Source: Cytophagales bacterium (GTDB taxonomy: Bacteria > Bacteroidota > Bacteroidia > Cytophagales > CCMP332). Taken from it: a stretch of 50,561 nt of DNA. Below, piece by piece: positions 2,363 through 49,791 of this stretch. A model generated the notes under the pieces. The model saw only the letters and a list, made by a program, of their open reading frames with translations. It did not search any database and was not told the DNA's origin. Position numbers and translations under genes: made by a program. The number at the start of each line of letters is the position of its first letter. Within the stretch, counting starts at the first letter, position 1. The DNA is taken from assembly GCA_028279065.1 (NCBI GenBank), contig JANQSY010000054.1, positions 1-50,561 of the forward strand, in the 5' to 3' direction.

Positions 2363-2710
2363 TCAGGCTTTCTTTTTCTTGCTTGATCTGGCCTTAGGGT
2401 TAAACTCCAGACATTGATCTATCCATCTTTCAAGGTCCTCTTCTTGGTCAATTCCTTCAGGTTCAACCAAAATATAACCCTTCATTGGCCTGCCTGTAAA
2501 GTCCATTTGTCTGGCTCCGGGTTGGTTTAGGGCTTTTTCATATTGCTGGGGGTCTATCCTGGCCATCAAAGAATCCTTTATCACACCCACACACATTTTG
2601 TCATCCACCATATAACAAAGGCCGCCCATCATCTTTTTGGCCTCAAAAGGAACCTTTTTATTCTCAAGTATCCTTGAAATTCTTTCTTCAAGGTATTCAT
2701 CATAAGGCAT
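2363..2710 (-). CDS. TfoX N-terminal domain family protein
   Basis: A small cytosolic protein of about 115 residues. The segment with KKMMGGLCYMVDDKMCVGV and the following LMARIDP is the TfoX N-terminal (Sxy-like) signature, a domain often found alone in Bacteroidota with no proven role. The tail is lysine-rich (SSKKKKA). I chose the ATG at 2710 over the TTG at 2716 because a -7 box (TAGATTTG, 2721 to 2714 on this strand) ends three bases before that ATG, so the mRNA may be leaderless. It diverges from the peroxidase gene. Family is fairly sure; function is not. Confidence 0.8.
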   Translation of the reverse strand: MPYDEYLEERISRILENKKVPFEAKKMMGGLCYMVDDKMCVGVIKDSLMARIDPQQYEKALNQPGARQMDFTGRPMKGYILVEPEGIDQEEDLERWIDQCLEFNPKARSSKKKKA

Positions 2711-2713
2711 AAT

Positions 2714-2721
2714 CAAATCTA
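2714..2721 (-). promoter_or_regulatory. -7 promoter box of the TfoX-like gene
   Basis: On the minus strand the sequence is TAGATTTG, matching TAnnTTTG. A TTG at 2747-2745 lies 23 bp upstream, at the upper limit of the usual 17-23 bp spacing. The box ends 3 nt before the ATG at 2710, so transcription would begin about at the start codon. Confidence 0.5.
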
Positions 2722-2754
2722 ATCATTTAGAAATTCGAAAAACTCAAAGAGGCA

Positions 2755-2762
2755 TAGATTTG
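2755..2762 (+). promoter_or_regulatory. -7 promoter box of the cytochrome-c peroxidase gene
   Basis: TAGATTTG matches TAnnTTTG and lies 23 bp before the ATG at 2786. No TTG lies at the proper distance upstream (TTC is present). The same box sequence serves the divergent TfoX-like gene. Confidence 0.45.
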
Positions 2763-2785
2763 TTATCACTTAAACACTCTGCACG

Positions 2786-3865
2786 ATGACCAAGACCTTT
2801 CAATTCAGCCTCCTGATTTTCATATTTATTTTTTCCTGCTCTGATAAGCAACCAAATAAGGCTCAGCAACAAGCCAAGGAGTATGCGGAAGCCTATGAGA
2901 TCGATGAACGGATCTATGAGCAAGTTACAAGGACATTTTCTTCCATTTCCGAACCGAAACCGATTGCAAATGATCCCAGGATATCAGAGAAGGTGAAGCT
3001 GGGAAAGATCCTTTACTATGATACCAGGCTTTCCAAAGAGGGAAACATCAGTTGTAATTCTTGTCATGATCTCTCAACATTTGGAGTGGATAACCTGCCC
3101 ACCTCTCCAGGTGATGCCGGAGAACATGGGGACAGGAATTCACCTACAGTCCTAAATGCTGCACTCCATACCAGTCAGTTCTGGGATGGAAGAGCCAAGG
3201 ATGTAGAAGAGCAGGCAGGAATGCCTATCCTGAATCCGGCGGAAATGGCGATTCCTTCTGAAGAATTTTTGATCGATAGATTAAATGGGATCGAGCTCTA
3301 TCAAAGCCTTTTTTCTTCGGCATTTCCAAATTCTTCTGATGCAATCTCTTACGAAAATCTTAAGACCGCTATCGGGGCTTTTGAACGGACCCTTATCACC
3401 CCTTCGGCTTTTGATGAGTATCTAAATGGAAAGAAAGGAGCGCTGACTCTGCAGCAAAAGAAGGGATTGTCAACCTTTATAGAGGTAGGTTGCATCACAT
3501 GCCACACAGGCCCCATGGTTGGAGGTAATCTGTTTCAAAAATTTGGTGTCCACTATGATTACTGGGAGTTCACTCAAAGCGACAATATTGATGAGGGAAA
3601 ATTCAAAATAACGGGTAATGAAGCGGACCGCTATGTATTCAAAGTTCCAACCCTCAGAAACGTTACCAAAACCGCTCCATACTTTCATGACGGCAGTGTT
3701 GATAACCTTTTTGAAGCGATCAAGATCATGGCCAGGGTTAACCTGAACAAGGATCTGCAACCCAGTGAAATCGAAAACATTATATCCTTCATGGAATCTC
3801 TTGAGGGAATGCCAAAAAGCGACTGGGCAACTTTTCCTGAAGAACTTGCTCAAAGCCAAGGATAA
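2786..3865 (+). CDS. Di-heme cytochrome c peroxidase (CcpA/MauG family) lipoprotein
   Basis: A periplasmic peroxidase-like protein of 359 residues, expected to reduce H2O2 with electrons from small cytochromes or quinol. A lipoprotein signal ends at Cys18 (IFSC-SD), so it is membrane-anchored. Two heme-attachment motifs are visible: CNSCH at residues 90-94 and CITCH at 236-240, the layout of bacterial di-heme peroxidases. Other family segments include FWDGRA (132-137), LNPAEM (149-154), and VPTLRNV followed by APYFHDGS (287-304). The length is normal for the family. It is monocistronic or pairs with the DUF4136 gene 38 bp downstream, which has its own possible promoter. Confidence 0.93.
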   Translation: MTKTFQFSLLIFIFIFSCSDKQPNKAQQQAKEYAEAYEIDERIYEQVTRTFSSISEPKPIANDPRISEKVKLGKILYYDTRLSKEGNISCNSCHDLSTFGVDNLPTSPGDAGEHGDRNSPTVLNAALHTSQFWDGRAKDVEEQAGMPILNPAEMAIPSEEFLIDRLNGIELYQSLFSSAFPNSSDAISYENLKTAIGAFERTLITPSAFDEYLNGKKGALTLQQKKGLSTFIEVGCITCHTGPMVGGNLFQKFGVHYDYWEFTQSDNIDEGKFKITGNEADRYVFKVPTLRNVTKTAPYFHDGSVDNLFEAIKIMARVNLNKDLQPSEIENIISFMESLEGMPKSDWATFPEELAQSQG

Positions 3866-3881
3866 ATATTGAAGGTTCTTC

Positions 3882-3889
3882 TAAATTTG
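3882..3889 (+). promoter_or_regulatory. Possible -7 promoter box of the DUF4136 gene
   Basis: TAAATTTG matches TAnnTTTG and lies 14 bp before the ATG at 3904. No correctly spaced TTG is visible, so this is tentative. Confidence 0.35.
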
Positions 3890-3903
3890 TAAAAAACAGC
3901 CCC

Positions 3904-4422
3904 ATGAGAAAATCACTCTTAAGCCTCCTTATTGTTCTATTTCTTTTTTCATGTGAGTCGATCAAGATCACTACTGACTATGATAAAACTGCTGACTTCA
4001 GCAAGTACAAAACCTATCAATTTGATCATAGGGTGAATGAGCTTCCGCTGAATGATCTTAACAAGAACAGATTATTGACCGCTATCGAGAATCAGTTAAA
4101 TGAGAAAGGACTGACAAAGGCCGATAATCCGGACCTATTTGTTGACGTGGTGTTAACTGCAAAGCAGGAGCAAAATACCTATGCCTCAACCAATTACTAT
4201 GGCGGTGGGTATAGATATGGATATGGAGGAATGAGTACTACAGATATTAACACGGTCACCTATGTGGTAGGCACATTGTTCATAGATCTCATAGATGCTG
4301 AGAAGAAGCAGCTTGTTTGGCAGGGAAGGGGTGAAGGGACCATTGATGAGGACACCAATGACAGAGAGAAAAACATCAATGATGCAGTAAGAAAGATCTT
4401 CTACTATTACCCGCCAAAATAA
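3904..4422 (+). CDS. DUF4136 lipoprotein
   Basis: A 172-residue lipoprotein with its signal ending at Cys17 (FLFSC-ES). The segment from ITTDYDKTADFSKYKTYQFD is the typical opening of DUF4136, a family of envelope lipoproteins in Proteobacteria and Bacteroidota. A glycine/tyrosine-rich loop (YYGGGYRYGYGG) precedes the final strands that end in LVWQGRGEG. Function is unknown. It is convergent with lysA, four bases apart. Confidence 0.88.
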   Translation: MRKSLLSLLIVLFLFSCESIKITTDYDKTADFSKYKTYQFDHRVNELPLNDLNKNRLLTAIENQLNEKGLTKADNPDLFVDVVLTAKQEQNTYASTNYYGGGYRYGYGGMSTTDINTVTYVVGTLFIDLIDAEKKQLVWQGRGEGTIDEDTNDREKNINDAVRKIFYYYPPK

Positions 4423-4426
4423 GAGC

Positions 4427-5626
4427 CTAGCTAGTCAACTCCATTTGAGTTGCCAAAAGGTCCTCAAGGCTTTCTCTTCGTCTGATTAGTTGCGCCTTTC
4501 CATCCTTTACCAATACCTCTGCAGGCTTTAGCCTTGAGTTATAGTTGGAGGCCATTGAAAAACAATAGGCGCCTGCATTCTTAAAGCATAAGAGATCTCC
4601 TTTTCTTACTTCGGTTATAAATCTATCCTGGGCAAAGGTGTCTGTTTCACATATGTATCCCACCACGGTATAGACCTTTTTTTCGCCTTCAGGATTCGAA
4701 AGATTCTCAATCTGATGATATGCATCATAGAACATAGGTCGAATAAAGTGATTGAATCCTGAATCAATTCCCACAAAAACGCAAGATGTGGTTTGCTTAA
4801 CAAGGTTGACTTTTGAAACAAAGCTTCCCGAGTTGCTGACCAGGAATTTTCCTGGTTCAAAACAAAGCTGGTAATCCTTATCCTGCTCCTTGCAGAATTC
4901 AAGAAAGACTTTCGAGAATTTTCTTCCAAAAACCTCCAGATTGGTTTCAGCATCTCCTTCCTTGTATCTGACCTTAAAGCCACTGCCAAAATCAATGAAT
5001 TTTACAGTTTCAAACTCTTTGACCACATCAAAGATCAACTCCGCAGCTCGGATGAAAATATCCGGATCGATTATATCAGAGCCGGTGTGTGTATGAATTC
5101 CTTCTACATTAATTCCAAGTTTTTGGATCAACCTTTTAAGAAGAGGGAGTTGGTGAATTGATATACCGAACTTTGAGTCAATATGGCCCACTGAAATATT
5201 CCTGTTTCCACCGGCCATGAGGTGTGGATTTATCCTTACCCAAAGTGAAATTCCAGGATATTTCATTCCCAGGTATTCCAATGTAGGCAGGTTGTCAACG
5301 TTTATGATCACTCCGAGATCAATGGCTTCCTCATATTCTGATTCAGAAATACAATTCGGGGTAAAAAGGATGTCCCTTGGATCAAAACCTGCTTTTAACC
5401 CAAGTTTTACCTCTTGTATCGAAACACAATCCAATGAGGCCCCATACGAATTGAATAGTTTGAGAATAGAGATATTGCTTAGTGCTTTGCAGGCATAAAA
5501 GACCTTTACAGCAAGATCCGGAAACGAATCCTTAAACCCGTAGTAGTTTTCCTTTATGACCTTCTCATCATATACATACAAGGGAGAGCCAAATGATTCG
5601 GCAATTTCTTTTAAATCTGAGTGCAT
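4427..5626 (-). CDS. lysA: Diaminopimelate decarboxylase
   Basis: A PLP enzyme that decarboxylates meso-diaminopimelate to L-lysine, the last step of lysine synthesis. The fold-III decarboxylase signatures are in order: FYACKA with the PLP lysine (K47 from the chosen start), HTHTGSD at 178-184, a glycine-rich FGSGF, FEPGK at 256-260 and CETDTFAQDR from 326, which supplies the active-site Cys. The length of 399 residues is normal. I prefer the ATG at 5626; the open frame also allows a TTG eight codons upstream. It is divergent from a histidine kinase, and the region between them holds inverted repeats. Confidence 0.93.
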   Translation of the reverse strand: MHSDLKEIAESFGSPLYVYDEKVIKENYYGFKDSFPDLAVKVFYACKALSNISILKLFNSYGASLDCVSIQEVKLGLKAGFDPRDILFTPNCISESEYEEAIDLGVIINVDNLPTLEYLGMKYPGISLWVRINPHLMAGGNRNISVGHIDSKFGISIHQLPLLKRLIQKLGINVEGIHTHTGSDIIDPDIFIRAAELIFDVVKEFETVKFIDFGSGFKVRYKEGDAETNLEVFGRKFSKVFLEFCKEQDKDYQLCFEPGKFLVSNSGSFVSKVNLVKQTTSCVFVGIDSGFNHFIRPMFYDAYHQIENLSNPEGEKKVYTVVGYICETDTFAQDRFITEVRKGDLLCFKNAGAYCFSMASNYNSRLKPAEVLVKDGKAQLIRRRESLEDLLATQMELTS

Positions 5627-5670
5627 TGATTCAATATGAAAAAAATGCAAATACTTTCAAATATTTCAGA

Positions 5671-5777
5671 ACATGGGAAGGTGAAATACTCTAGGTATTC
5701 CATGTGCCTTTTTATACTATTCAGCACTTTTTCGGCATTTTAGCAACAACACCTTTTTCTAAATTGCATAGTATAAA
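5671..5777. promoter_or_regulatory. Inverted repeats in the lysA / histidine-kinase divergent region
   Basis: Two dyads are visible. ACATGG (5671-5676) pairs with CCATGT (5700-5705), enclosing AATAC/GTATT (5685-5689, 5695-5699). TTTATACTAT (5711-5720) is perfectly inverted as ATAGTATAAA (5768-5777). They could be regulator sites or RNA hairpins. No canonical TAnnTTTG is seen for either gene. Confidence 0.4.
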
Positions 5778-5798
5778 TTTTGCCTTAGGGAAACTACT

Positions 5799-7148
5799 AT
5801 GGATTGGGCTCATAGGATAAAGAAATACTTTCTAAGGGATAATTATCCTGACCCTACGGAGAACCGTAAGATCACCCTTACCTTCTATCTCCTGATTTTC
5901 GGGGGTTTGGCAACTCTCATATTGCCTTTCATTTATGTTGCAATTGGATTTAATGAAGGTTTGGTTTTTTCAACCGCTGCTACCGCTATGGCCGTAGCGA
6001 TGCTCTATGGAATTAGACGTGGGGTGAATTACATCACCATGGGAAACTTCTGTGCTTTCTCTGTTATCCTTGATCTTGGGGCCCTGGTGGTTTTTACTGG
6101 AGGGATCCATTCTCCAGCCTTGATCTGGCTTCTGTTTGCCCCGATAACCGGCTACCTTCTCACCAATAACTTTTCCGGAAGGCTATGGTCCGTGGTTACT
6201 TTTCTTTTGGTTTTGACCCTGGCCCTTTTCCCCTTTTTTGGAATTGAGCTTCCCAATTTTATTTCTCCTCATTATTGGTCGGTAGTGATGCTTGCAAATT
6301 TCGTATTCAGTATTGGAACCTTGCTTTTCATTGTATTTTCTTATGAAAGCCAACAGGAAAAGGCGGTTCTCAAAATGGAGGAATTGAATAGGGAACTCCG
6401 CAAAAAATCCCGGGAAGCAGAAGATTTGAACAGAAACTTGGAACATAAGGTGGAAATTCGAACAAAGGAACTACGAAAGATGAATGAGGAACTGGACCAC
6501 TTCTCGTACAGCATTTCTCATAATCTAAGAGCTCCACTAACCTCTATTTTGGGTTTGGTTGACCTTATAGAAAAGGATCCCGAGAGTTCAAGGGAGTATC
6601 TTGATCTGATCAGGACCTCCACAACTAAATTGGATGAGACAATCCATACGATAAACACCTACCTAAAAGGCAACAGGTCCAATGGAGAACAAGCTCAAGT
6701 AGATATTGAAAAAGAGGTTAGGGGAATTATTGAAAGTCTTTCCTACAGTGAGAATGCAAAAAGCCTGGAATTTCTGATTGATGTTGAGCCTAGATTGGTT
6801 ATTTCAATCGATCAGGGAAAATTCCGAACTATTCTGTCCAACATCATCAATAATGCCATTAAGTACTCCGACCAGGACAAGGATGAGAGTTTTGTGAAAG
6901 TGGTTGCGGAGAAAAATGGGAGTGGAGTGTTAATATCTGTAAAGGACAATGGAATTGGTATCGAATCTGAGAAGAGAGAAAAGGTCTTTGAGATGTTTTA
7001 CAGGGGAACAGAGCTATCCAAAGGGGATGGCCTTGGATTATATATTGTTAAAGAGGCCATAGAGAGGTTAGGTGGATCAGTAGGGCTGGAATCGGAAAAG
7101 AGCCTGGGATCTACTTTTACCTTGAAATTTCCCGATCAAGGTTCCTGA
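5799..7148 (+). CDS. Membrane-bound sensor histidine kinase
   Basis: 449 residues. The first 185 hold about six hydrophobic segments (for example 28-50 and 130-148), a membrane sensor without a periplasmic domain. A charged coiled coil follows (185-232), then the HisKA dimerisation helix with SISHNLRAPL, phospho-acceptor H241. The ATPase domain shows N-box NIINNAIKYS, G1 box DNGIGI and G2 box GDGLGLYIVKEA. The signal is unknown. No response regulator lies next to it, so it is an orphan kinase here. Its end overlaps the convergent dioxygenase-like gene by 13 bp. Confidence 0.93.
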   Translation: MDWAHRIKKYFLRDNYPDPTENRKITLTFYLLIFGGLATLILPFIYVAIGFNEGLVFSTAATAMAVAMLYGIRRGVNYITMGNFCAFSVILDLGALVVFTGGIHSPALIWLLFAPITGYLLTNNFSGRLWSVVTFLLVLTLALFPFFGIELPNFISPHYWSVVMLANFVFSIGTLLFIVFSYESQQEKAVLKMEELNRELRKKSREAEDLNRNLEHKVEIRTKELRKMNEELDHFSYSISHNLRAPLTSILGLVDLIEKDPESSREYLDLIRTSTTKLDETIHTINTYLKGNRSNGEQAQVDIEKEVRGIIESLSYSENAKSLEFLIDVEPRLVISIDQGKFRTILSNIINNAIKYSDQDKDESFVKVVAEKNGSGVLISVKDNGIGIESEKREKVFEMFYRGTELSKGDGLGLYIVKEAIERLGGSVGLESEKSLGSTFTLKFPDQGS

Positions 7149-9160: not shown

Positions 9161-10030
9161 ATGAAAAAGAAAATACTCATTACAGGGGCCACCGGCAGCA
9201 TAGCGAGCCTTGTTATACCCCAATTATTGAAAGAAGGGCAATATGTGAGAGCCTTGGTCCGTCAAAAAAGTAAAGGTGAAGCTTTGGAAAAAATGGGTGT
9301 GGAATTGGCAGAAGGAGAGTTTTCCGATCAAGATGCTTTGGACAGAGCGGCAGATGGAGTGGATGCCATCCTGGCAATCACACCGCCAAATCCGGATGCG
9401 GTTCAACAAGGTAGAAATATCCTGAATGCGGCAAGAAAATCAGGATCTCCATTTTATCTGAGGATATCAGCTTTGAAAGCTGCGGAAGATGCTCCTCAGA
9501 ACAACGGAAGACTCCACTTCCAGAGTGATGTGGATTTGATTGATTCAGGGCTTCCCCACACAATTTTAAGACCGCATTATTTTATGCAGAATCTTCTAAT
9601 GTCAGGAGATACTATTAAGTCTGAAAACCAATTGTATTGGGGAATGGGAGAAGGAAAACTTGGGATGATAGATGTCCGGGATATTGCGGATTGTGCTGCC
9701 CAAATCCTGATCAGATCTGAATCTCATCTTGGAAAGATCTATACCTTAACAGGACCCGATGTTATCGGTGTCGATGATATTACGAGAACATTATCCGAGA
9801 AAATAGGTCGCAGGATAAATTCAATCAGAATTGGACTTGATGATGTATATAATTCAATTATAGATTCAGGCTGGGGAGAATGGGGGGCAGAGGTCATGAA
9901 AGGATATTCCAAGGCATACAGTGAGGGCTGGGGTGATTTTACAACCCAGGACGTAAAAAACATTCTCAAAAAAGATGCTCGTGGTATTGATGTCTTTGTT
10001 GAGGAAATTTTGACTAAAGCAATAGAATAA
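9161..10030 (+). CDS. NmrA-family NAD(P)-binding oxidoreductase
   Basis: 289 residues from the ATG at 9161, which directly precedes the Rossmann start KKKILITGATGSIASLV (GxxGxxG-type loop). The rest matches NmrA/HSCARG and azoreductase-like atypical SDR proteins: LAITPPNPD, HFQSDVDLIDSGLPHTILRPHYFMQN, and MIDVRDIADCAAQIL. These use NAD(P)H as cofactor or redox sensor. The frame can be extended 20 codons upstream, but that would overlap the promoter. The divergent MarR gene suggests induction by a small molecule or redox stress, typical for detoxifying reductases. Confidence 0.87.
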   Translation: MKKKILITGATGSIASLVIPQLLKEGQYVRALVRQKSKGEALEKMGVELAEGEFSDQDALDRAADGVDAILAITPPNPDAVQQGRNILNAARKSGSPFYLRISALKAAEDAPQNNGRLHFQSDVDLIDSGLPHTILRPHYFMQNLLMSGDTIKSENQLYWGMGEGKLGMIDVRDIADCAAQILIRSESHLGKIYTLTGPDVIGVDDITRTLSEKIGRRINSIRIGLDDVYNSIIDSGWGEWGAEVMKGYSKAYSEGWGDFTTQDVKNILKKDARGIDVFVEEILTKAIE

Positions 10031-10037
10031 ATCCTGG

Positions 10038-10343
10038 CTATTTGGTATTTAAATGTTCACGGACCAGTTGGAGTAGGTCTTGATGATCTGAAACTGAATA
10101 ATAGGGCATTCTGGAATGTTGGACGGATCCCTGTTTGATCATTTTTTCCTTTAACTGACTGTCAGCTTTAAGGAAAAAATTTCCTTTGCTATCAAGGATC
10201 CCGAACATCCCCTTCTCCGTAAAAAAGCCATAGCCTCCAAACATTTTTTTATTGTATATCCCTTCGAGTTCTTCAAGGCTTAGAAGAATTTCTCTGGCCA
10301 CCTCATCTACATGACCGCCGGATCTTGCTCCCTTCTCTCCCAT
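10038..10343 (-). CDS. TfoX N-terminal domain family protein
   Basis: 101 residues starting at the ATG at 10343, whose first base is shared with the TAA of the upstream DUF2834 gene (TAATG), so translation is probably coupled. KKMFGGYGFFTEKGMFGIL and the following GNFFLKAD are the TfoX-N signature. A longer frame back to 10439 overlaps DUF2834 and is unlikely. It is the last gene of a tightly packed operon. A second such protein lies at 2363-2710 and a more distant one at 28267-28611. Function unknown. Confidence 0.82.
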   Translation of the reverse strand: MGEKGARSGGHVDEVAREILLSLEELEGIYNKKMFGGYGFFTEKGMFGILDSKGNFFLKADSQLKEKMIKQGSVQHSRMPYYSVSDHQDLLQLVREHLNTK

Positions 10344-10675
10344 TATTCCTGGTTTTCCATTCTTGATTGCCTTTGGTAAAGGAACAAAGGAAAGGTGCCT
10401 GCCAATCCGAAAAGCATGGTCAATATCCATATCAACCAAGGTGTTTTCATATTATATTTTCTTGCTTCATGGTAGGACCAAATGAAGAAAACCAACACCA
10501 CAAATAGAAGATCTACTATAAAGGCGGTAGAAATTTTGTTACCAAACATTCCATTCATGGTTTCCATGGGTTTTAACCAAAAAAGTACGTTGCCAGTCTC
10601 TATTGAGACCATTGCAACCCAAATATTTGGTGCAATGAACCCAAGGATTGTTAAGGTTAAGTATAGATTTTTCAT
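10343..10675 (-). CDS. DUF2834 small membrane protein
   Basis: 110 residues with three hydrophobic segments (about 4-22, 50-68 and 82-98). The central LKPMETMNGMFGNKISTAFIVDLLF and the ending FPLFLYQRQ match DUF2834, an inner-membrane family of unknown role. It follows the epimerase gene by 6 bp and overlaps the TfoX-like gene by one base. Confidence 0.78.
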   Translation of the reverse strand: MKNLYLTLTILGFIAPNIWVAMVSIETGNVLFWLKPMETMNGMFGNKISTAFIVDLLFVVLVFFIWSYHEARKYNMKTPWLIWILTMLFGLAGTFPLFLYQRQSRMENQE

Positions 10676-10681
10676 GTTATT

Positions 10682-11608
10682 TTATTGATTTTCGTAAAAT
10701 TCAATGCTTTGCCTCATTCCCTCCTTATACGTTGTGGGCTTGAAATTAAATTCCTGTTCAAACTTGCTGCTATCAAACAAGTAGTCAGAATCCATTTGAT
10801 AAAGCATTTCCTGGTTTTCTTTTATTGCATTTATAAACAACCCGAGCATTGAGAGGAACCATCTTTGCAAGACCATGATCTTGGGTTTTTTATCCATAAT
10901 TCTTGCACAAAGATCAATATATTGCTGCCCGCTCATTGCATTTTTGTCAGTTGGCAAATGCCAGACCTTATCATATGCTTCTTCTTTGTTTCCCAGTATT
11001 GCGCAAGCTCTCCCTGCATCAGGTGTGTAGGTTAATGAATGCTTTTTGTTAGGATCAAGCATCCATTGAGCTGGTTTTCCTTTCAGGAGATTTTGAATCA
11101 CCATTATATTGAAAAAGCTCAGTGGGGTATCAGGCCCATAAAAATCCGCTGATCTTGCAATAATTGCTTTCAGGTTTCCTCCTTTAATTTCCTGCTTTAT
11201 CATCTGGTCCAGTTCCGCCCTAACCGCCCCTTTTTTGCTGCTTGGTTTTACCTGGGTCTCTTCTGTCATCCAACCCTCAACCTTTCCGTAGCAATACACA
11301 TTGTCAAAGAATACGAGCTTGCATGCTTCGGATTTGCATGATTCAATGACGTTTTTCATTATCATTGGCCACTCTTTTTGCCAAATCCTGATCTTGTATT
11401 CCAAACCTACTGTTAGGTAAGCCACCTCACAACCCTTCACTGCTTTTTTTACTTGGGATAGATCTTTAAGATCCGTTGGGAAGAGCTCGTCCTGTTCGTT
11501 TAGCCTCTTCGGATTTCTACTTGCCAGTCGAACCGGAATGCCCATTTCATGGAGCTCTTTTGCAACCTCTTTGCCTATGACTCCATTTGATCCAAGGATT
11601 ACCTGCAT
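10682..11608 (-). CDS. NAD-dependent epimerase/dehydratase-family (extended SDR) protein
   Basis: 308 residues with an N-terminal Rossmann motif GSNGVIGKEVAKEL (GxxGxxG) and VRLASRNPKRL, the segment that often prefers NADP. FFDNVYCYGKVEGWMTEE has a YxxxV instead of the usual YxxxK, so catalysis may be altered. RSADFYGPDTPLSFF is typical of epimerase/dehydratase-like SDRs. The start ATG lies one base after the NTF2-like stop. Substrate unknown. Confidence 0.83.
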   Translation of the reverse strand: MQVILGSNGVIGKEVAKELHEMGIPVRLASRNPKRLNEQDELFPTDLKDLSQVKKAVKGCEVAYLTVGLEYKIRIWQKEWPMIMKNVIESCKSEACKLVFFDNVYCYGKVEGWMTEETQVKPSSKKGAVRAELDQMIKQEIKGGNLKAIIARSADFYGPDTPLSFFNIMVIQNLLKGKPAQWMLDPNKKHSLTYTPDAGRACAILGNKEEAYDKVWHLPTDKNAMSGQQYIDLCARIMDKKPKIMVLQRWFLSMLGLFINAIKENQEMLYQMDSDYLFDSSKFEQEFNFKPTTYKEGMRQSIEFYENQ

Positions 11609-11609
11609 T

Positions 11610-12083
11610 TTATTCCCTTTTGGTTTCTTGAAATTTTGCTAACATTTTATTTGTCTTCCCCTGAAGGTTTTTTCTGAAGAATTGGGTCCAGCCGATCAAA
11701 AATCCTGTTAGCCCCAGGGCCTGTCTTGACCATGTATAAAGATTAAATTCATCCCTATGGTTTGAGATCTTTTGCTCCCGAACTTCTATTGTAGACCTTA
11801 CCTTATTATGGACCCTTCTTCCTGTACTTCCAAAGGTGTAGGTCGCCTTCCAATTTGTGATCACGGTATTTCCATCGCTACTCTCTATTCCAAATTCCAC
11901 CTTAAGATCCCTTGATCTCTTGATCAGCATTCTCCACATATCCTGTGCCTGCGTACCATTTAGGCTTCCAAATGCAGGATCGTGGAAACTTGAATCTTGC
12001 AGATAGTAGGATGCCATTTTTTCGGCATCCAGATGTTCAAAGGCCTGATAAAAGCCTGCTACAATAGCTTCCGGATCATTCAT
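11610..12083 (-). CDS. NTF2-like / SnoaL-type protein
   Basis: 157 residues. VAGFYQAFEHLDAEKMASYYLQDSSFHDPAFGSLNGTQAQDMWRML is the typical opening of the SnoaL/NTF2-like cone fold, a pocket domain used by isomerases, cyclases and small-subunit dioxygenase partners. The C-terminal third (ALGLTGFLIGWTQFFRKNLQGKT) is also common in Bacteroidota members. It overlaps the MmcQ gene by 4 bp. A link with the Rieske oxygenase of the same operon is possible but not shown. Confidence 0.82.
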   Translation of the reverse strand: MNDPEAIVAGFYQAFEHLDAEKMASYYLQDSSFHDPAFGSLNGTQAQDMWRMLIKRSRDLKVEFGIESSDGNTVITNWKATYTFGSTGRRVHNKVRSTIEVREQKISNHRDEFNLYTWSRQALGLTGFLIGWTQFFRKNLQGKTNKMLAKFQETKRE

Positions 12084-12433
12084 TTTAACCCGATCTCTTT
12101 TTTGATTTTCCTCGGTAATTTTTCAGCTATCAGTTGAAAGGATCGATTGATGAATAACACCCACTCTTCCTTTGAAAGCAATGCAATATCATCCACGAAA
12201 ACCCATTTATACCTCGCCAGGTAGGAAGCAGGTTCAAAGCGATCATTTTCGATCATGGATTCAAACTCTTGCTCGGAGACCTTAAATGATGCCGAAGGCG
12301 GCACTTTGTCAGGAGAGGTGATCAGGAACATTTTTCCTCCGATATTGAAGCATAAATGGTCTTCCCATTTTATGTCCTCTGTCACCCCGGGCAGATCCAT
12401 ACAGATCTCTCGAATGTCTTCAATCCTGATCAT
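12080..12433 (-). CDS. MmcQ/YjbR-family protein
   Basis: 117 residues from the ATG at 12433. IREICMDLPGVTEDIKWEDHLCFNIGGKMF and the later SFKVSEQEFESMIENDRFEPASYLARYKWVFVDD are the YjbR (CyaY-like fold) signature. The family is thought to bind DNA, but its role is unsettled. The gene overlaps the end of the DinB-like gene by 14 bp in another frame; a longer start at 12478 would deepen that overlap. Confidence 0.88.
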   Translation of the reverse strand: MIRIEDIREICMDLPGVTEDIKWEDHLCFNIGGKMFLITSPDKVPPSASFKVSEQEFESMIENDRFEPASYLARYKWVFVDDIALLSKEEWVLFINRSFQLIAEKLPRKIKKEIGLK

Positions 12434-13088
12434 AATGACTTGAGATTGGAAAGCCTCGTTGATTTTTAATTCCTTCAATCTGCTTGGTATGCCTTACTGT
12501 ATGGGCAAGCCCTGTCAATACCAGTTGGTGAAGATCTCTTACATCTCCTGGTTTCAAATCTTCTAAAACCGGATTTCCCCTTGGATCACTGAAAACAAAA
12601 TGAACTCTCAAATTGGATTCTGTTTCCTCAAGGAAGTCAGAATAATGATCTCTTACCCTGACCAGAGCATTAAAAGCTGCATCAAGATCACTGAATCTTC
12701 CGATGGGGTCCATATACCATCCGGATTTGCCTTTCTTTGGATTGCTCGAGTACCCGGCGTAGATGCTATCTCTTCCGGCACACAGTGGAGCATATTCATG
12801 TAATTCAGGACCTCGGGATTGAGAGCTGACCTCCCTGTAATGAAGCTCGTTTTGGACCTCCAGGTGCTCAACAATTTCTAAAATAGACCAGTCTTCCTCC
12901 GATGCCTTGTAATTGGCTTGTTGCTCATCAAGGTCCCGGATGACTACCCAAAGCAGTTTAGTTGTCCGCTCCATTTCCTCGATCAGGAACTGGCGATCCT
13001 CGTCTGTCCATTTGGGTGCTTGCTCTCTTTTTTCTGAGCATCCGATGAAAAGTATAATGCAGCTAAAAAGGGCTCCTTTCACCATCAA
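12420..13088 (-). CDS. DinB-fold lipoprotein
   Basis: 222 residues. A lipoprotein signal ends at Cys17 (LFIGC-SE). The mature part follows the DinB/YfiT four-helix bundle: DWSILEIVEHLEVQNELHYR early and GLAHTVRHTKQIEGIK late, giving the His triad expected to bind a divalent metal. DinB-fold enzymes include thiol transferases that use bacillithiol or mycothiol; most are cytosolic, so a membrane-anchored exported one is unusual. It overlaps the Rieske gene by 4 bp. Confidence 0.82.
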   Translation of the reverse strand: MMVKGALFSCIILFIGCSEKREQAPKWTDEDRQFLIEEMERTTKLLWVVIRDLDEQQANYKASEEDWSILEIVEHLEVQNELHYREVSSQSRGPELHEYAPLCAGRDSIYAGYSSNPKKGKSGWYMDPIGRFSDLDAAFNALVRVRDHYSDFLEETESNLRVHFVFSDPRGNPVLEDLKPGDVRDLHQLVLTGLAHTVRHTKQIEGIKNQRGFPISSHYDQD

Positions 13089-14215
13089 TCCATATTTAGA
13101 AACTTTGAGATCAACAGGTGAAACTGATGAACGCCCTGCTCTTTGGTTGGAGAGAATCTACCCGAAATATAAGAGCGCGAACGGATCCCTTTTTGCACGG
13201 AAAGCACCACCTCCTCATCCTCCAATTCTACGCGGTTCAGATCATTTCCAGCTCCGGATCTCACTCTTTCCTGATCGCCTACAAAGGTCAAGAATCTTAT
13301 TCTGGTTTTCGCAATATCTACCGGCTCAACCACATTCAGGGAAAGTCCCCATGGATAGAAATTCAGCATTAGATTCGGAAAGATCCAGAAATAGTAAGCT
13401 GCAACATTTTTCCCATGATCAATATGGCCCTCCGGCAGGGAAAAGCAATCTTTTTGATCCTTTGATATCCCGACCTGCACATTATGAAATTGACCTAACT
13501 CAATGGAATAGTTTGGATAATCTAGCACCTGATTCAAGCCCTTATGTACAAAGGGGATATGAAACCCTTCAAGGAAGTTGTCACAATAAAGTGCCCAGTT
13601 TGCATCAAGGTGATAGTCGACTGATCTTTCCTTGTCAAACTTGAATTTATCAGGATTTAAGAATCCTATCCGGTTTTCAACCTGCTTGAAAACCTCTTGA
13701 ATATCAAAGGCCGGTTCAAGGCTGGAAAAAAAAAGGTCACCCCACATCTCCAGCTTATGCTTTTCCAGGTTTTCATTTTTTCGAGGGAATCCTTGGGCAA
13801 CTTCGAATTCGGGCATATGCTCGAATCTACCTTCAAGGTCGAATCTTCTCCCATGATATCCACATACCAGTTTCTGGCACTCCTTTTCAGATTCTAACAG
13901 CAAGTTCCCTCTGTGGGTACATACATTGGAGATACAATTGAGATTTCCCCGGGAATCTTTGGTAACTAAAATAGGTTCATCCAGGTATTGGGATAAAAGG
14001 AAAAAAGGTTTGGCCGAGCCATTCTTCATAGATCCCGGTCCTTCGAGAAAATGCCAGGACCTTGAAAATACCCTGTCCTTCAGTTGTTCAAAAACTTCCC
14101 TGTCTGAATAGAAACTTCCCGGTAGGGTTTCGGCCTTGGATATATCAGGATCAATCTTGAATTGCACGGGCTCAAATTGAGGATTATGTGGGCATAATCC
14201 AATCCCGTTTTTCAA
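13085..14215 (-). CDS. Rieske non-heme iron oxygenase, large subunit
   Basis: 376 residues. The Rieske [2Fe-2S] ligands are C99, H101, C118 and H121 (CTH ... CGYH). The catalytic domain shows DNFLEGFHIPFVH with Fe ligands H219 and H224. The N-terminal FKIDPDISKAETLPGSFY is characteristic of choline-monooxygenase/ring-hydroxylating alpha subunits. The only start that keeps the full length is a TTG at 14215, three bases after the PagL-like stop and preceded by an in-frame stop, so coupled translation is likely. No ferredoxin or reductase partner is visible nearby. Substrate unknown. Confidence 0.9.
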   Translation of the reverse strand: MKNGIGLCPHNPQFEPVQFKIDPDISKAETLPGSFYSDREVFEQLKDRVFSRSWHFLEGPGSMKNGSAKPFFLLSQYLDEPILVTKDSRGNLNCISNVCTHRGNLLLESEKECQKLVCGYHGRRFDLEGRFEHMPEFEVAQGFPRKNENLEKHKLEMWGDLFFSSLEPAFDIQEVFKQVENRIGFLNPDKFKFDKERSVDYHLDANWALYCDNFLEGFHIPFVHKGLNQVLDYPNYSIELGQFHNVQVGISKDQKDCFSLPEGHIDHGKNVAAYYFWIFPNLMLNFYPWGLSLNVVEPVDIAKTRIRFLTFVGDQERVRSGAGNDLNRVELEDEEVVLSVQKGIRSRSYISGRFSPTKEQGVHQFHLLISKFLNMD

Positions 14216-44431: not shown

Positions 44432-45184
44432 CTATTTTTCTTCTATAACAAAGAACCACGGAACGGAAACCAAGGGATTACAATCCTTCTCTTCATACAC
44501 CCCTTCTTCAAAACAGGTTTGAATAACGGTGTATGGCCCCTCTTTCGATTTAATTCTCAATGCCAGTTGCGATTCCGGACCTTTTTCAAGTAAGGCTGCA
44601 TTGTTAAAACCCATGTTCTTAAGTAGGGTCCCAAATTCCTCCCCCGACCTTCCCTTGGAACCGGAGATAAAATAAACATACCCTGGGTTTCCTTCTCTTG
44701 TTGCCATAACGATTGAGCCAAACACCTTGTCATTTCCCTTCAGAGCAACATCTCCATTTTTTATTAGCGCAATATTCTGGACCACGGTGTGGTACTTGAG
44801 AATAGAATCTTGATCATAAAAGAATCCCGGCTTGTCGCCCACCAATGGATCCATGCAAAAGAAAGAGCTGTAATCGTTCATGGGTGAAAGATTCCACCCT
44901 TTGATCTTGAACATTCCAACATGCTTCCCTTCCTCGGTAAAGATCCCGGCATTGACGGCCAACAGGACCTTCTCATCCTCATCCAGGATATGTGTGGCAG
45001 TTGAGGTATGTCCCCAATCTCCGATCTTGCTTTGTTCCAGTCGTAAGCTTGAAATGGGTGTTTTGAAGATCCGTATATCAGGGATCCCCGTTTTTTCCTC
45101 CTTAATCAATTGATTCTGAGCTCCAAGCATCATGGGGATCAACAGAACCGCTGGGACCAGGAATAGAATTCTTGGTATGGTCAT
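44432..45184 (-). CDS. Phosphodiester glycosidase-like (NAGPA/DUF2233) protein
   Basis: 250 residues with a signal peptide ending near LGAQ. VLLAVNAGIFTEEGKHVGMFKIKGWNLSPMNDYSSFFCMDP is the DUF2233/NAGPA opening, and SGSKGRSGEEFGTLLKNMGFNNAALLEKGPESQLAL matches the family end with its Asn-Ala-Ala-Leu. It would act outside the cytoplasm on a sugar phosphodiester such as a polymer linkage. Monocistronic. Confidence 0.8.
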   Translation of the reverse strand: MTIPRILFLVPAVLLIPMMLGAQNQLIKEEKTGIPDIRIFKTPISSLRLEQSKIGDWGHTSTATHILDEDEKVLLAVNAGIFTEEGKHVGMFKIKGWNLSPMNDYSSFFCMDPLVGDKPGFFYDQDSILKYHTVVQNIALIKNGDVALKGNDKVFGSIVMATREGNPGYVYFISGSKGRSGEEFGTLLKNMGFNNAALLEKGPESQLALRIKSKEGPYTVIQTCFEEGVYEEKDCNPLVSVPWFFVIEEK

Positions 45185-45202
45185 GTGGTTTTAGTGCGTT
45201 AG

Positions 45203-45636
45203 TTGGTTCCAAAATATACAACCATGGCCATTCCGTCATTCTCCCGGCGACCTTTTTTGGCATTTTTAGAGCTAAAAAAGTGGATCCAGAAATCCTCTCT
45301 CAACAGTGGCATGGATGCTTTATCGGGAACCAAAAAGGAAATAATCAATATGCATTCCCTAGCCCAGTCATTATCGGAGCATTGATCAAACCCATCACCA
45401 GTTTCCTGAGGGCCATTGTGATCACAAAAAAGACCATCAGCCGTAATGTGACCAAAAGTGAACTAGAAGTCCTGAAAATGATCGTGAACGGTTATTCCAC
45501 AAATGAGATCGCCGACTTATTATTCATTAGCGAGCACACTGCTATCACTGACAGAAAGAGGCCCATCGAGAAGTTCAAGGCACGAAATAGAGCCCAGATG
45601 GTCAAAAGTGCCTGTCAAGTCTACGCCTTCGACTAA
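45203..45636 (+). pseudogene. Decayed NarL/LuxR-type response regulator
   Basis: Two frames carry parts of one protein. In one frame (to the TGA at about 45387) the end SGMDALSGTKKEIINMHSLA resembles the last helix of a receiver domain. In the other frame, NVTKSELEVLKMIVNGYSTNEIADLLFISEHT is a LuxR HTH that runs to 45636. A frameshift near 45380 would split the gene. The rest of the receiver, including the phospho-Asp, is absent. The frame at 45172 begins inside the start of the opposite gene, so it is not real. Confidence 0.55.
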
Positions 45637-45713: not shown

Positions 45714-46106
45714 TTGGACTATAAAACAATAGAAATCTTTCTTATTGTCTTCGCGCTCCTCTACGTGGTGTTTGAGGTGGTTTTAAATGTGATAGGAAAC
45801 GATGAGGATACCACCAACGTATTCCTGAACAAATGGTCCAGGGGAGAGTTTTTGTTTATCCCTTTCGCATTGGGAGCCATTTGTGGGCACTTATTTCTAG
45901 GGGTTTATAAAAATCCTTTTCCTAATGACATTTTTTCCTGGATATCCAACGAGATGCTTGCTGTAGCGCTTCTTGCGCTGGTCTCTATTCTTCTATGGTT
46001 GCTGGGAAAGTTCTCCAGTTTTCAAAGAACCAATACTATCATTTCTATAATTCTTTTGTCTGGCCTTGCGTACGGACATTTTTTTTGGTCAATGAGACAT
46101 CCCTAG
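45714..46106 (+). CDS. Small membrane protein, first gene of the DUF2589/amidase cluster
   Basis: About 130 residues, with four hydrophobic segments (about 6-25, 47-65, 80-97, 105-122). No family recognised. The start is a TTG at 45714; there is no ATG in frame near it. The next gene begins 9 bp after its stop. Confidence 0.6.
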   Translation: MDYKTIEIFLIVFALLYVVFEVVLNVIGNDEDTTNVFLNKWSRGEFLFIPFALGAICGHLFLGVYKNPFPNDIFSWISNEMLAVALLALVSILLWLLGKFSSFQRTNTIISIILLSGLAYGHFFWSMRHP

Positions 46107-46115
46107 AGCTGAACT

Positions 46116-46490
46116 ATGAAATACCTAAAGGCAGTAAGAACGATCATAATTGTTGTTTTCAGCGCATTGGTGTTGATCGATCTTTACCTGGTGTTTTCTG
46201 AGGACTACCCCACCTTTAGCAAGGTTTTCCATGTATATCGGAAAGGACTGGTTTGGATGTCCTTCGTATTTGGAGGCTTGATCTTCAAGATCTTCTTTAA
46301 CCGCCCAGCCAATAGCTGGAAAAGTGAGCTCTATGGTTTCGGTGTTTTTCTTGCCTGTGCCATTCTGATATTCTTCTTGGCAAGATTCATAGAGTTTACT
46401 CCAACCAATCTTTTGGAGTTTTCTCTGATGGCAGTAGGAGGAATACTAGCCAGAATTTTTTGGCCTCAGTATAAATTACCTACAGCTTAA
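46116..46490 (+). CDS. Small membrane protein, second gene of the cluster
   Basis: 124 residues, four hydrophobic segments (about 7-28, 45-58, 72-90, 95-112). Similar in size and topology to the preceding protein, perhaps a partner or diverged paralog. No family recognised. DUF2589 gene begins 14 bp later. Confidence 0.65.
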   Translation: MKYLKAVRTIIIVVFSALVLIDLYLVFSEDYPTFSKVFHVYRKGLVWMSFVFGGLIFKIFFNRPANSWKSELYGFGVFLACAILIFFLARFIEFTPTNLLEFSLMAVGGILARIFWPQYKLPTA

Positions 46491-46504
46491 AGATCCAAAA
46501 CGAA

Positions 46505-47281
46505 ATGGCAAATCAAGAAAATACTCCCCAAAACAGCCCTGATGAGAACATGCCTGAAATTACCCTTTCTTCTGCTTTGCTTGCACCGCTTGGATCAATA
46601 TTTGAGGCTCAGATCCATTCCGCAAGATCCTTTTTGAATTTCTTACTTCAGATGGGATTTCGCCACCAATACACAGAAGAAGAGAAAGAGGACCTGGAGG
46701 AAAATAATCCGGAAGAATACAGCACAATCATAGAGGGGGAAGAGGGAAGAAAGGAAATACAGGAAATCCTGAAGAAGAAAAGGGACTTGGAGGCAGACAA
46801 TCAAACCCTTCCCAGATCCGATGTTCAAAGACTCAAAGAACTGAATGCCAAGCATGGCAATTTGTTTTCACAGATCATTGAATATTACGATGATGCCGGA
46901 AACGAAATGATGCTAAATATCCCTAACCTGGCATTGCTTCCTGTTAAACCCTTGTCAATAAATGAAGCGGAATTCTCCTATGAATTTGAAGTTTCGAAGA
47001 CAAAGGAATGGACCAATCGTCAAGGAGAAAATTGGGTTAAGGAGGATAAGAAAGGCAGCTCAAGACCATGGTACCTGATCAAAGAACCGAAATCCTTACG
47101 TGGGCGTATTGGCGCAAAAAAGGTTAAATCCAAGGAAGAGACAGAGTCCTCATCGGCCATATCGATAAGAATGAAGATAGGAACCACGGAAATGCCCTAT
47201 GGGCTGGAAAAATTAATGGTTCACCTTACAAATTCATCGGAGGTGATCGAAACCAAAGACAGTAATAATTCAGAAGAGTAA
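46505..47281 (+). CDS. DUF2589-family protein (long form)
   Basis: 258 residues, no signal peptide. The core resembles DUF2589: an amphipathic helix (ITLSSALLAPLGSIFEAQIHSARSFLNFLLQMGF), a central charged insertion with coiled-coil character (residues about 57-115), then strands NIPNLALLPVKPLSINEAEFSYEFEV and SAISIRMKIGTTEMPYGLEKLMVHL. The order matches the shorter DUF2589 protein that follows. Function unknown. Confidence 0.75.
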   Translation: MANQENTPQNSPDENMPEITLSSALLAPLGSIFEAQIHSARSFLNFLLQMGFRHQYTEEEKEDLEENNPEEYSTIIEGEEGRKEIQEILKKKRDLEADNQTLPRSDVQRLKELNAKHGNLFSQIIEYYDDAGNEMMLNIPNLALLPVKPLSINEAEFSYEFEVSKTKEWTNRQGENWVKEDKKGSSRPWYLIKEPKSLRGRIGAKKVKSKEETESSSAISIRMKIGTTEMPYGLEKLMVHLTNSSEVIETKDSNNSEE

Positions 47282-47299
47282 AACCTAAATTTTATTAAA

Positions 47300-47902
47300 A
47301 TGGCAGAAAAGAAAAGCGACAAACAATCTGATTCAGAGGACGATGCAGATACAAATCCTATGGTAGCGTCCCCATCGGAGTTTTCTAAAATTCCCTTGGA
47401 TTTTATTATTGCCTCTCCCTTATTGACTACAATTGAAGCTCATAAGTTGGCCGCAATGACGACGCTTGATTTCGTCAATTCCCTAAAGGATGCTGGCAAT
47501 GTTGAGTTTGAAGTAGTTGCACAGAAAAAGGATGCTACAGGAGCTACTGAGGCAAGCAAAAAGGTGAATGTTCCGATCCTGGCGTTGACCAAGGTCCCAA
47601 GTTTAAATTTTGACTCCTTAAGCGTCAACTTTAACTATAATATTTCTCAAATAGTTAAGGAAACCAATGAGAAGAAATCCAAACTTTCAGCGAAAATTGG
47701 GACCACAGGAATTCTGTCGAAATTCGTTTCGGCAAGCATTAACGGTTCGATTGAAAATACCTCCAATAGGGAGAACACTGTAAATCGAGGCGGAACCCTG
47801 GATGTTAAACTCCATGTGAGTGAATCAGCATTACCGGCAGGCCTGGAAAAGGTAATTAACGCAATAGTTGAGAACATCGAGATCCCAGAAGGGGGAAAGT
47901 AA
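47300..47902 (+). CDS. DUF2589-family protein (short form)
   Basis: 200 residues, no signal peptide, acidic N-terminus. IPLDFIIASPLLTTIEAHKLAAMTTLDFVNSL and VNVPILALTKVPSLNFDSLSVNFNYNI are typical of DUF2589, and TLDVKLHVSESALPAGLEKVINAI closes it. It parallels the preceding protein segment by segment, so the two are paralogs. Function unknown. Confidence 0.8.
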   Translation: MAEKKSDKQSDSEDDADTNPMVASPSEFSKIPLDFIIASPLLTTIEAHKLAAMTTLDFVNSLKDAGNVEFEVVAQKKDATGATEASKKVNVPILALTKVPSLNFDSLSVNFNYNISQIVKETNEKKSKLSAKIGTTGILSKFVSASINGSIENTSNRENTVNRGGTLDVKLHVSESALPAGLEKVINAIVENIEIPEGGK

Positions 47903-48023
47903 GGATAGCCAGTTGGCCGAAGGTAGCCTGGACAAACAAATTTGGGTTACTCAACTGGTTCAAGATCCGAAGGGTGAGATTTTCTCCCGAAGGAGTTTTT
48001 AGGAAGCTTAATTTTTCATTCGG
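47903..48023 (+). other. Short gap with a possible small ORF
   Basis: A frame from TTG at 47913 to TAG at 48002 reads a 29-residue peptide (with LDKQIWVTQLVQDPKGEIF inside). It could be a real small protein or chance; there is no ATG. Confidence 0.25.
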
Positions 48024-48449
48024 ATGGAGAACAAAGTTCCCGGCTTGGCCCAGGAGCTGGTGGAAGAAGCTATAAGGGCCGATATCACCATGCATGAAAT
48101 GCAAATGGAGGAGTGGCTTAGGATTGCCAGCCATCCACCCAAGGGAGAGCATATACCCAAGGACCTATTGGTTGGATTTGGGGGTGATCAATACCTTGCT
48201 TTGAAGGAATTGAAATTAGATCTCAAGCTTAAACCGGTTCCGGTCAAGGGCTTTTTCAATCGCCTTAAGGCATCAACCAAGGTCCTGTTTGGACGTCATT
48301 TTCTTCGAGAAGGGCAAACGGTTTTTTTCGAAGTATGCAAGGAGGGTGAACAAGGTGGTCATTCATTTCAAATAATAGTTAGAAGAGGACCCGACGGAGA
48401 GTTTGAATCGAGTGTTGAGGACTCCGGTAAAATCAACGAAAGTAAATAG
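48024..48449 (+). CDS. Small DUF2589-like protein of the cluster
   Basis: 141 residues. Its order mirrors the two DUF2589 proteins: a first helix (GLAQELVEEAIRADITMHEMQMEEWLRIAS), strands in DQYLALKELKLDLKLKPVPV, and a final strand HSFQIIVRRGPDGEFESSVED. No signal peptide. A distant homolog is inferred; no profile was run. The amidase gene begins 1 bp after its stop. Confidence 0.6.
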   Translation: MENKVPGLAQELVEEAIRADITMHEMQMEEWLRIASHPPKGEHIPKDLLVGFGGDQYLALKELKLDLKLKPVPVKGFFNRLKASTKVLFGRHFLREGQTVFFEVCKEGEQGGHSFQIIVRRGPDGEFESSVEDSGKINESK

Positions 48450-48450
48450 T

Positions 48451-49791
48451 ATGGATTTTATTCCCGGAACGCTGGATTACAGAGATAGACTCCTTAGACA
48501 TGCGATTCGAAAGTATTCCTCGAGACCCCTTGCTTCTGTCACTCATGTTGCAGTGCATCATAGTCTTACCAAGACGGGTAGCGCTGAATCATTCGCCAGA
48601 TATCATGTTCGGACAAACGAATGGCCGGGAATAGGCTACCACTTCGTGATCGAGAAGAACGGAACGGTTAAATGGTGCAACGATCTTGAGGTGAAATCAT
48701 ATCATGTCGGGAAAAGCAACTCTTTCTCTGTTGGCATTTGTATGGTAGGGGACTTTAGGGTTCAGAGTCTTGAAGAGGTACAGCTGAGACCACTGATCAA
48801 ATTGCTGAAGTTTCTGAAGAGGGAACTTGCAATTTCCAATGAGAACATTTGGGGGCATAATGAATTCCAGGATTATGATTGGAAAGAATGCCCCTGCGTT
48901 GACATGTCCATGATAAGGTCCAGGGCTTCAGGCAAACGTAAGGTTCTGATGCGAAGAGATCTTGTAAAAGGGAGGAAATTTGACTTCAATTCCTTCGATC
49001 TGGGACCAGAAGCCATACTCGATCCAAATTTCCTTTTCAACAAACCCGGAGAAAGTGTAATAACAGCAGCAAATCGCATGAAGGCGAGGGATTTGGGCGA
49101 GGTAAAAAAGCGGAACCGCTTGGTGGATGTAAAGAAAAGAAGCAAGGTCCCGAGAAAGGTTAAGATCAAGGGCCCCATTGAATCACTCCCACCAAGGTTG
49201 GAATCATTGATCAGAGCTATGGACGGTAAAGGCTTCCGCTATTTTTCCGATGATTCAAAGCCGTTTAACCTTAATATCGTGGGTCTTAGATCCCAGACCG
49301 ATCAGCCTAATAGATTTGATGATGAAATATGGGTTTTCTGGAAGTATGACAATACCTGGACTCTAAAAACCTATAAGGCCACCGCCGATCCCGGACTCAC
49401 CTATTTAAATGATCCCATCAATGATTCAGGCACCGCAATACTTAAGGAGGGACAATATTTGTCCTCGTACAGATTGGGAAAACATAGAAATAGGTATGAG
49501 GCTCTGGTTCAGGCTAAACCGGTCACGGTCATTCGCGATTTCGATCGGGATAGTGTATTGGATTATGACTCCGGAAAGGAACAAACAGGTTTTTTCGGAA
49601 TCAATATTCACAGGGCAACGGCAAAAGGTGAATCACAATATGTAAATAAGTGGTCAGCAGGGTGCCAGGTTTTTGCCAGGAGTTGGGAGTTCAAGGAGTT
49701 TATACAAACCTGCAATAAATCCAGAAGCATCTGGGGAAATAGTTTTACTTACACCTTGTTATCCAGATCTGAACTCAGCTTAAGCGTTTGA
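48451..49791 (+). CDS. Two-domain peptidoglycan enzyme: amidase_2 plus L,D-transpeptidase-like
   Basis: 446 residues from the ATG at 48451. Residues about 1-160 are N-acetylmuramoyl-L-alanine amidase (amidase_2/PGRP): VAVHH with H36 or H37, GIGYHFVI with Y63, WGHNE with H136, and KECPC with K145 and C147, matching the T7 lysozyme Zn ligands and catalytic Tyr/Lys. A lysine-rich linker follows. Residues about 250-440 have NIHRA (H387) and WSAGC (S402-C405), like the HX14-17[S/T]HGC core of L,D-transpeptidases but with Ala for the second His. No signal peptide is seen, so it may leave the cell through the neighbours or act after lysis. Confidence 0.85.
   Translation: MDFIPGTLDYRDRLLRHAIRKYSSRPLASVTHVAVHHSLTKTGSAESFARYHVRTNEWPGIGYHFVIEKNGTVKWCNDLEVKSYHVGKSNSFSVGICMVGDFRVQSLEEVQLRPLIKLLKFLKRELAISNENIWGHNEFQDYDWKECPCVDMSMIRSRASGKRKVLMRRDLVKGRKFDFNSFDLGPEAILDPNFLFNKPGESVITAANRMKARDLGEVKKRNRLVDVKKRSKVPRKVKIKGPIESLPPRLESLIRAMDGKGFRYFSDDSKPFNLNIVGLRSQTDQPNRFDDEIWVFWKYDNTWTLKTYKATADPGLTYLNDPINDSGTAILKEGQYLSSYRLGKHRNRYEALVQAKPVTVIRDFDRDSVLDYDSGKEQTGFFGINIHRATAKGESQYVNKWSAGCQVFARSWEFKEFIQTCNKSRSIWGNSFTYTLLSRSELSLSV

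Follow-up and report, generated by a model that had tools for sequence, protein, structure and literature searches.

A six-gene row of a Cytophagales bacterium with DUF2589 proteins and a leaderless, predicted bimodular peptidoglycan enzyme, and the recurrent linkage of DUF2589 loci to unrelated wall hydrolases

Contig JANQSY010000054.1 of a Cytophagales bacterium (assembly GCA_028279065.1), analysed over its whole 50,561 nucleotides and called the window below, carries six plus-strand genes in a row, TM1-TM2-A-B-C-enzyme, with spacers of 9, 14, 18, 121 and 1 bp (Table 1). The genes and gaps had been proposed in an initial annotation made from the DNA letters alone, and our coordinates agree with it, the fourth gap being 121 bp. 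A and B belong to DUF2589 (PF11655), a broadly scattered family without known function and with almost no literature. As described below, operon linkage repeatedly joins DUF2589 genes to wall hydrolases that lack a signal peptide and come from at least seven unrelated families, which offers a testable first clue to the role of DUF2589.

Table 1. Coordinates of the gene row, the enzyme domains and the upstream open frame (positions in the window; aa, amino acids; HTH, helix-turn-helix).
Feature	Position	Strand	Description	Profile match
TM1	45714..46106	+	small membrane protein, TTG start, four hydrophobic segments	
TM2	46116..46490	+	small membrane protein, three clear and one weaker hydrophobic segment	
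A	46505..47281	+	DUF2589 protein with inserted charged region	PF11655 9.6e-12
B	47300..47902	+	DUF2589 protein	PF11655 1.8e-19
C	48024..48449	+	third protein, possible remote DUF2589 paralog	
Enzyme	48451..49791	+	predicted bimodular peptidoglycan enzyme, no signal peptide	
Amidase_2 domain of enzyme	48535..48894 (aa 29-148)	+		PF01510 1.9e-17
PHROG_3000 domain of enzyme	49288..49770 (aa 280-440)	+		PHROG_3000 9.4e-36
Upstream open frame	45172..45636	+	short LuxR-type (GerE) HTH frame	GerE 3.1e-12 (aa 94-146)

Wall hydrolases are recurrent neighbours of DUF2589 genes. A hand count of the loci fetched gave 40 distinct intact DUF2589 loci, some of them from related species and not fully independent, and a wall-hydrolase-type gene lies within about 5 kb in at least 12 of the 40, a lower bound as neighbour annotation was sampled. 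The hydrolase gene is on the same strand as the DUF2589 genes in 10 of these 12 loci, and six of them (the window, L063, L105, L066, L107 and L108) are tight operons; by inspection, nearly all of the linked wall enzymes lack a signal peptide. At least seven unrelated hydrolase families are found near DUF2589, namely SLT-like, PF11860, GH108, GH25, M15, CHAP and DUF5675. The window has an Amidase_2 joined to an L,D-type domain; L063 has an SLT-like enzyme with weak Pfam support (0.014), and that of L105, SLT-like by homology to L063, is bimodular with a C-terminal DUF5675. PF11860 muramidases occur in L037 and L108, GH108 in L066, M15 together with patatin in L067 and L043, CHAP in L046, GH25 with an N-terminal transmembrane (TM) anchor in L107, PHROG_3000 alone in L047 and DUF5675 alone in L110. 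In the three A-B-C loci that have a wall enzyme, it always follows C directly, lying 1 bp behind it in the window and overlapping it by 20 bp in L063 and by 23 bp in L105, and the catalytic domains of these enzymes are unrelated (Amidase_2 in the window versus SLT-like in L063 and L105). No Amidase_2 relative of the window's enzyme was found in the other DUF2589 loci examined. Thus, the initial annotation's general pairing of DUF2589 with an amidase did not hold, the amidase being confined to the window and unrelated families filling its slot elsewhere, while the broader idea of a wall-opening unit is favoured by the recurrent linkage of multi-paralog DUF2589 operons to leaderless hydrolases.

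The linkage was compared with chance expectation by searching four families in 32 DUF2589-positive genomes, which gave 31 matches (9 for DUF5675, 5 for PHROG_3000, 6 for PF11860 and 11 for M15_4). Six of the 31 lie within 5 kb of DUF2589 (two, two, one and one, respectively) against 0.087 expected (P 6e-10), and five when the window is left out (P 4e-8), P values that are too small since the families were chosen post hoc, after being seen beside DUF2589. As a conservative bound, dropping one match per family leaves two against 0.087 expected (P 0.004). Altogether, the link between DUF2589 and wall hydrolases is well supported, and the recurrent pairing with unrelated wall enzymes suggests a machine for release or delivery that has yet to be described.

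The DUF2589 proteins A and B score 45.9 and 71.0 bits against PF11655, whose gathering cut-off is 23, whereas C does not match PF11655 nor any family in the libraries scanned. The alignment of C with DUF2589 is in register (helix, then strand pair; hhalign P 0.017). C was also compared with c1, a third DUF2589-like family that sits in a related operon type (DUF2589-c1-c3) and whose profile matches DUF2589 with P 4e-5; this comparison gave P 0.0086, as against P 0.44 for an unrelated helical control family. Such values suggest that C is homologous to DUF2589. Of the initially proposed three proteins with the same order of segments, two of them in DUF2589, the two are confirmed, while for C the order is plausible and homology falls short of proof. 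None of A, B and C has a hydrophobic segment fit for a signal peptide or TM helix. No relatives were found when PDB sequences were searched with the DUF2589 profile, and an AlphaFold2 model of B from 14 sequences reached a predicted local distance difference test (pLDDT) score of only 51.7; its fold-search matches (SecB and hot-dog, best Z 4.9) were set aside as unreliable, the model being poor and the matches not standing out.

A genome scan detected orthologs of A in Cytophagales (L061), Chlorobiaceae (L059, L060 and L062) and Bacteroidia (L063). Orthologs of B adjoin A in L059, L060, L061, L063 and L105, and orthologs of C follow B in L061 (E 1.7e-14), L063, L105 and L059-L062, with L105, from another genome, also holding the trio. 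The A-B-C order is kept across Cytophagales, Chlorobiaceae and Bacteroidia, and as other lineages keep the trio in this order, the row is more than a chance arrangement.

The Amidase_2 match of the enzyme reaches 64.3 bits against a cut-off of 26. In an alignment with T7 lysozyme and with amidases of solved structure, visual inspection shows that the domain retains the zinc-ligand pattern of T7-lysozyme-type amidases, and H36, H136, K145 and C147 were assigned from this alignment, also by eye. Hydropathy of the enzyme gave neither a signal peptide nor a TM segment. The C-terminal domain belongs to PHROG_3000, which is annotated as of "unknown function" and has at least 599 confirmed relatives in IMG/VR viral contigs; no Pfam family matches the domain, and a PDB sequence search with the PHROG_3000 profile gave no relatives. 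Using an alignment of 49 viral PHROG_3000 relatives and the window domain, AlphaFold2 produced a model of the domain (window 49183-49788) with pLDDT 93.9 and a predicted template modelling score of 0.90. Foldseek ranked DpaA first (E 0.0057) and Pgp2 next (E 0.075), no match passing E 0.001, and VIA comparison returned Pgp2 (Z 9.4), Csd6 (9.1), Bd1075 (9.1) and DpaA (8.1), after which further L,D-transpeptidases come among the matches listed. The alignment shows an invariant H143 (domain numbering; aa 387) and a nearly invariant C161 (aa 405). By its modelled fold and its His/Cys motif, the domain is predicted to be L,D-transpeptidase/carboxypeptidase-like (YkuD-like), and this result proposes a function for PHROG_3000. 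The enzyme would combine this activity with that of an amidase, in agreement with the two peptidoglycan-active domains and missing signal peptide read initially.

A possibly related motif was seen in DUF5675, whose members in L105 (7138-7542) and L110 (12118-12513) show IRIHxGNTxxDTxGCIL, resembling the L,D-transpeptidase His/Cys motif. The profile comparison of DUF5675 with PHROG_3000 gave a borderline P of 0.025; by eye, an IH...GC pattern is present in both, and the two may be in the same superfamily.

Since both domains of the enzyme match phage lysis families, the row could be a prophage lysis cassette in decay, lying beside genes unrelated to it. This explanation, already disfavoured, is very improbable: the open frames read around the row include no recognisable phage structural gene, the GC content of the row equals the window mean, and A-B-C is kept in chromosomal loci of several lineages. 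By eye, the open frames at 30-45 kb resemble ordinary chromosomal genes; downstream, the view ends with the contig at 50561. Viral scans for DUF2589 gave few contigs, which by eye include one phage-like locus (L064), one by inovirus-like genes (L066) and one by tail-like genes (L067). The LuxR-type HTH frame upstream of the row is possibly a regulator or a remnant, and regulator genes also adjoin other DUF2589 loci. Within the B-C gap (47903-48023) one frame is stop-free and another is open for about 32 codons, and an extra or lost coding piece is possible there.

The distribution of DUF2589 is patchy (19/296, 8/241 and 13/395 genomes). Such patchiness, and the presence of a leaderless toxic enzyme together with membrane proteins, would suit a suicide (abortive) defence module in which the membrane pair and the endolysin are set off by infection and kill the host cell. 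We hold this to be improbable, as a PADLOC search gave no match with E < 0.01, the row has no sensor or nucleotide-signal gene and we know of no described defence system that includes DUF2589.

Wall enzymes are not the only hydrolytic or toxin-like neighbours of DUF2589. Patatin (L067 and L043), subtilase S8 (L040, with a homolog in L048) and trypsin-like (L041) genes were also found, and hydropathy indicated no signal peptide in the proteins checked, which left out that of L048 and the L063 deaminase. Together with the TcB-like protein of L053 and the deaminase-domain protein of L063, these same-strand genes without an evident signal peptide are in line with DUF2589 proteins acting as carriers, chaperones or targeting factors for varied leaderless effectors, the wall enzyme being one of many and delivered to other cells or envelopes by some means that the row does not encode. 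The effectors were, however, annotated from sampled neighbours and their frequency has no background comparison, and the weak SecB-like Foldseek matches rest on the low-quality model of B (pLDDT 52) and were unremarkable in a second comparison (best Z 4.9), so that we consider a carrier role somewhat unlikely.

Several arrangements around DUF2589 genes are recorded here as such. Behind A-B-C and the SLT-like enzyme, L063 encodes a membrane protein, a pYEATS protein and an XOO_2897-type deaminase-domain protein (9552-11841 and 12389-13978), and in L053 a DUF2589-c1-c3 operon is followed, after 232 bp, by the TcB-like protein (2622-6818; SpvB and TcdB-mid domains). The subtilase-type gene of L040 (6076-7332), with no evident signal peptide, stands after c3, and its homolog in L048 (10381-11643) has the same position, each with a small gene behind it. 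A small (about 70 aa) zinc-ribbon-like protein is encoded beside or between DUF2589 paralogs in L100, L101, L104, L107, L108, L110 and L050, the Zn_ribbon_4 match of the L101 protein being below cut-off. Finally, c8 (about 91-94 aa, no Pfam match) follows DUF2589 on two Vibrio plasmids, on a Deltaproteobacteria plasmid and in L066 (L035, L036, L037 and L066).

TM1 and TM2 are paralogous (blastp E 0.002; Smith-Waterman z 7.6, with 0/2000 shuffles as high). Both had been taken for four-TM proteins, which applies to TM1, while TM2 has three clear segments and a weaker fourth. By size and topology only, TM1 appears holin-like; TM2 has no match in phages.

We propose, with a probability of about one in three, that the row is a phage-lysis-like module by which an assembly based on DUF2589 is released in the manner of a type 10 secretion system (T10SS). 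The leaderless A, B and C would probably form one hetero-oligomeric cytoplasmic assembly, to which a phage-lysis-like cassette is attached here, with the TM1-TM2 paralogs as putative holin-type pores and the leaderless bimodular enzyme. The amidase domain would remove stem peptides and the L,D-transpeptidase-like domain would trim or edit them. Upon induction, the pores would give the enzyme access to the wall and the enzyme would open it; the DUF2589 assembly, or a protein carried by it, could then exit the cell in a T10SS-like manner. Co-transcription, holin action, complex formation and the part of DUF2589 as released or carrying component are our inferences.

Several observations weigh against this proposal. 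The TM pair matched no holin family in the library scans, and its relatives are missing from the other DUF2589 loci examined and from the rest of the 395 Bacteroidota genomes, where matches were at chance level only. The pair is, as far as these loci and genomes indicate, unique to this locus, and it falls outside the conserved core, with no relative in the 394 other Bacteroidota genomes. Moreover, the 121-bp gap parts B from C, the trio loci L059-L062 have no enzyme, and no cargo was identified. The initial annotation had named DUF2589 genes without an amidase in most genomes as evidence against itself, and the hand count found no recognised wall hydrolase near 28 of the 40 loci. DUF2589 also extends beyond bacteria. 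Archaea, Archaeoglobus fulgidus among them, to our knowledge have no peptidoglycan, and because DUF2589 occurs in an archaeon, and archaea lack this wall polymer, wall cutting is not the core function of the family. In A. fulgidus, a DUF2589-related region (AF0414-AF0417) is reported to show raised expression on lactate (PMC3949148).

The majority of loci without a recognised hydrolase, the archaeal genes and the mainly phage occurrence of the PHROG_3000 domain would all fit an independent intracellular role of DUF2589 (storage, stress or structural assembly), the enzyme being a domesticated phage endolysin settled alongside. Repeated linkage to unrelated hydrolase families, far above chance and in several tight operons, speaks against such a coincidence, and we judge it unlikely. 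The enzyme is better seen as an exchangeable part, because DUF2589 is also found at loci that have no recognised hydrolase, and in an archaeon. More tentatively, and with some doubt, DUF2589 arrays might be the constant core of an undescribed, widespread bacterial and archaeal assembly or export machine with an exchangeable slot for leaderless effectors, filled in bacteria by wall hydrolases from many unrelated families to pass the cell wall or attack that of others.

With regard to known systems, multi-paralog arrays like A-B-C are typical of the DUF2589 family. Pgp2, Csd6, Bd1075 and DpaA, L,D-carboxypeptidases or related wall enzymes, are the best fold matches of the enzyme's C-terminal domain (Z 8.1-9.4), but share only 15-18% identity with it; they are exported enzymes. 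The PHROG_3000 proteins crAss002 gp5 and Pseudoalteromonas phage ACA1 gp35 have about 41-44% identity with this C-terminal domain and share its conserved H and its SAGC motif; such proteins, however, stand alone at about 200 aa in the phage contigs read, whereas the window's domain is fused to an amidase. The spike (VgrG-type) family PF04717 is absent from the 97%-complete genome of the bacterium and was found in two controls, and delivery by a type VI secretion system or phage-tail-like injector is less likely because the genome lacks this spike protein. The R-body protein RebB (PF11747) had no match in the genome, and the control likewise gave none.

At its core, a T10SS has a holin together with a peptidoglycan hydrolase that lacks a signal peptide, and spanins are optional (PMC13284979; PMC10847048); one T10SS also employs an L,D-transpeptidase, and that of Salmonella has no spanins (PMC13284979). 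In the row, no spanins were recognised by eye, the enzyme is a predicted peptidoglycan hydrolase without signal sequence, and the TM pair is holin-like in size and topology, yet has no holin family match. Described T10SSs (chiWXYZ of Serratia; holin, TtsA and YcbB of typhoidal Salmonella; HolA, PepB, Rz and Rz1 of Yersinia entomophaga) likewise place small membrane proteins beside a leaderless phage-type wall hydrolase, and GH108 and M15, the enzyme types of TtsA and ChiX, are also found beside DUF2589. It is plausible by this analogy that the row works like a T10SS; that it is one is not established, holin and cargo being only putative. In contrast to described T10SSs, the row has no recognised holin, its enzyme is a predicted fusion of Amidase_2 with an L,D-transpeptidase-like domain, and its constant core, DUF2589, is absent from them; if our proposal is true, it would add to Bacteroidota a holin-and-endolysin-like release system built around a defined protein assembly.

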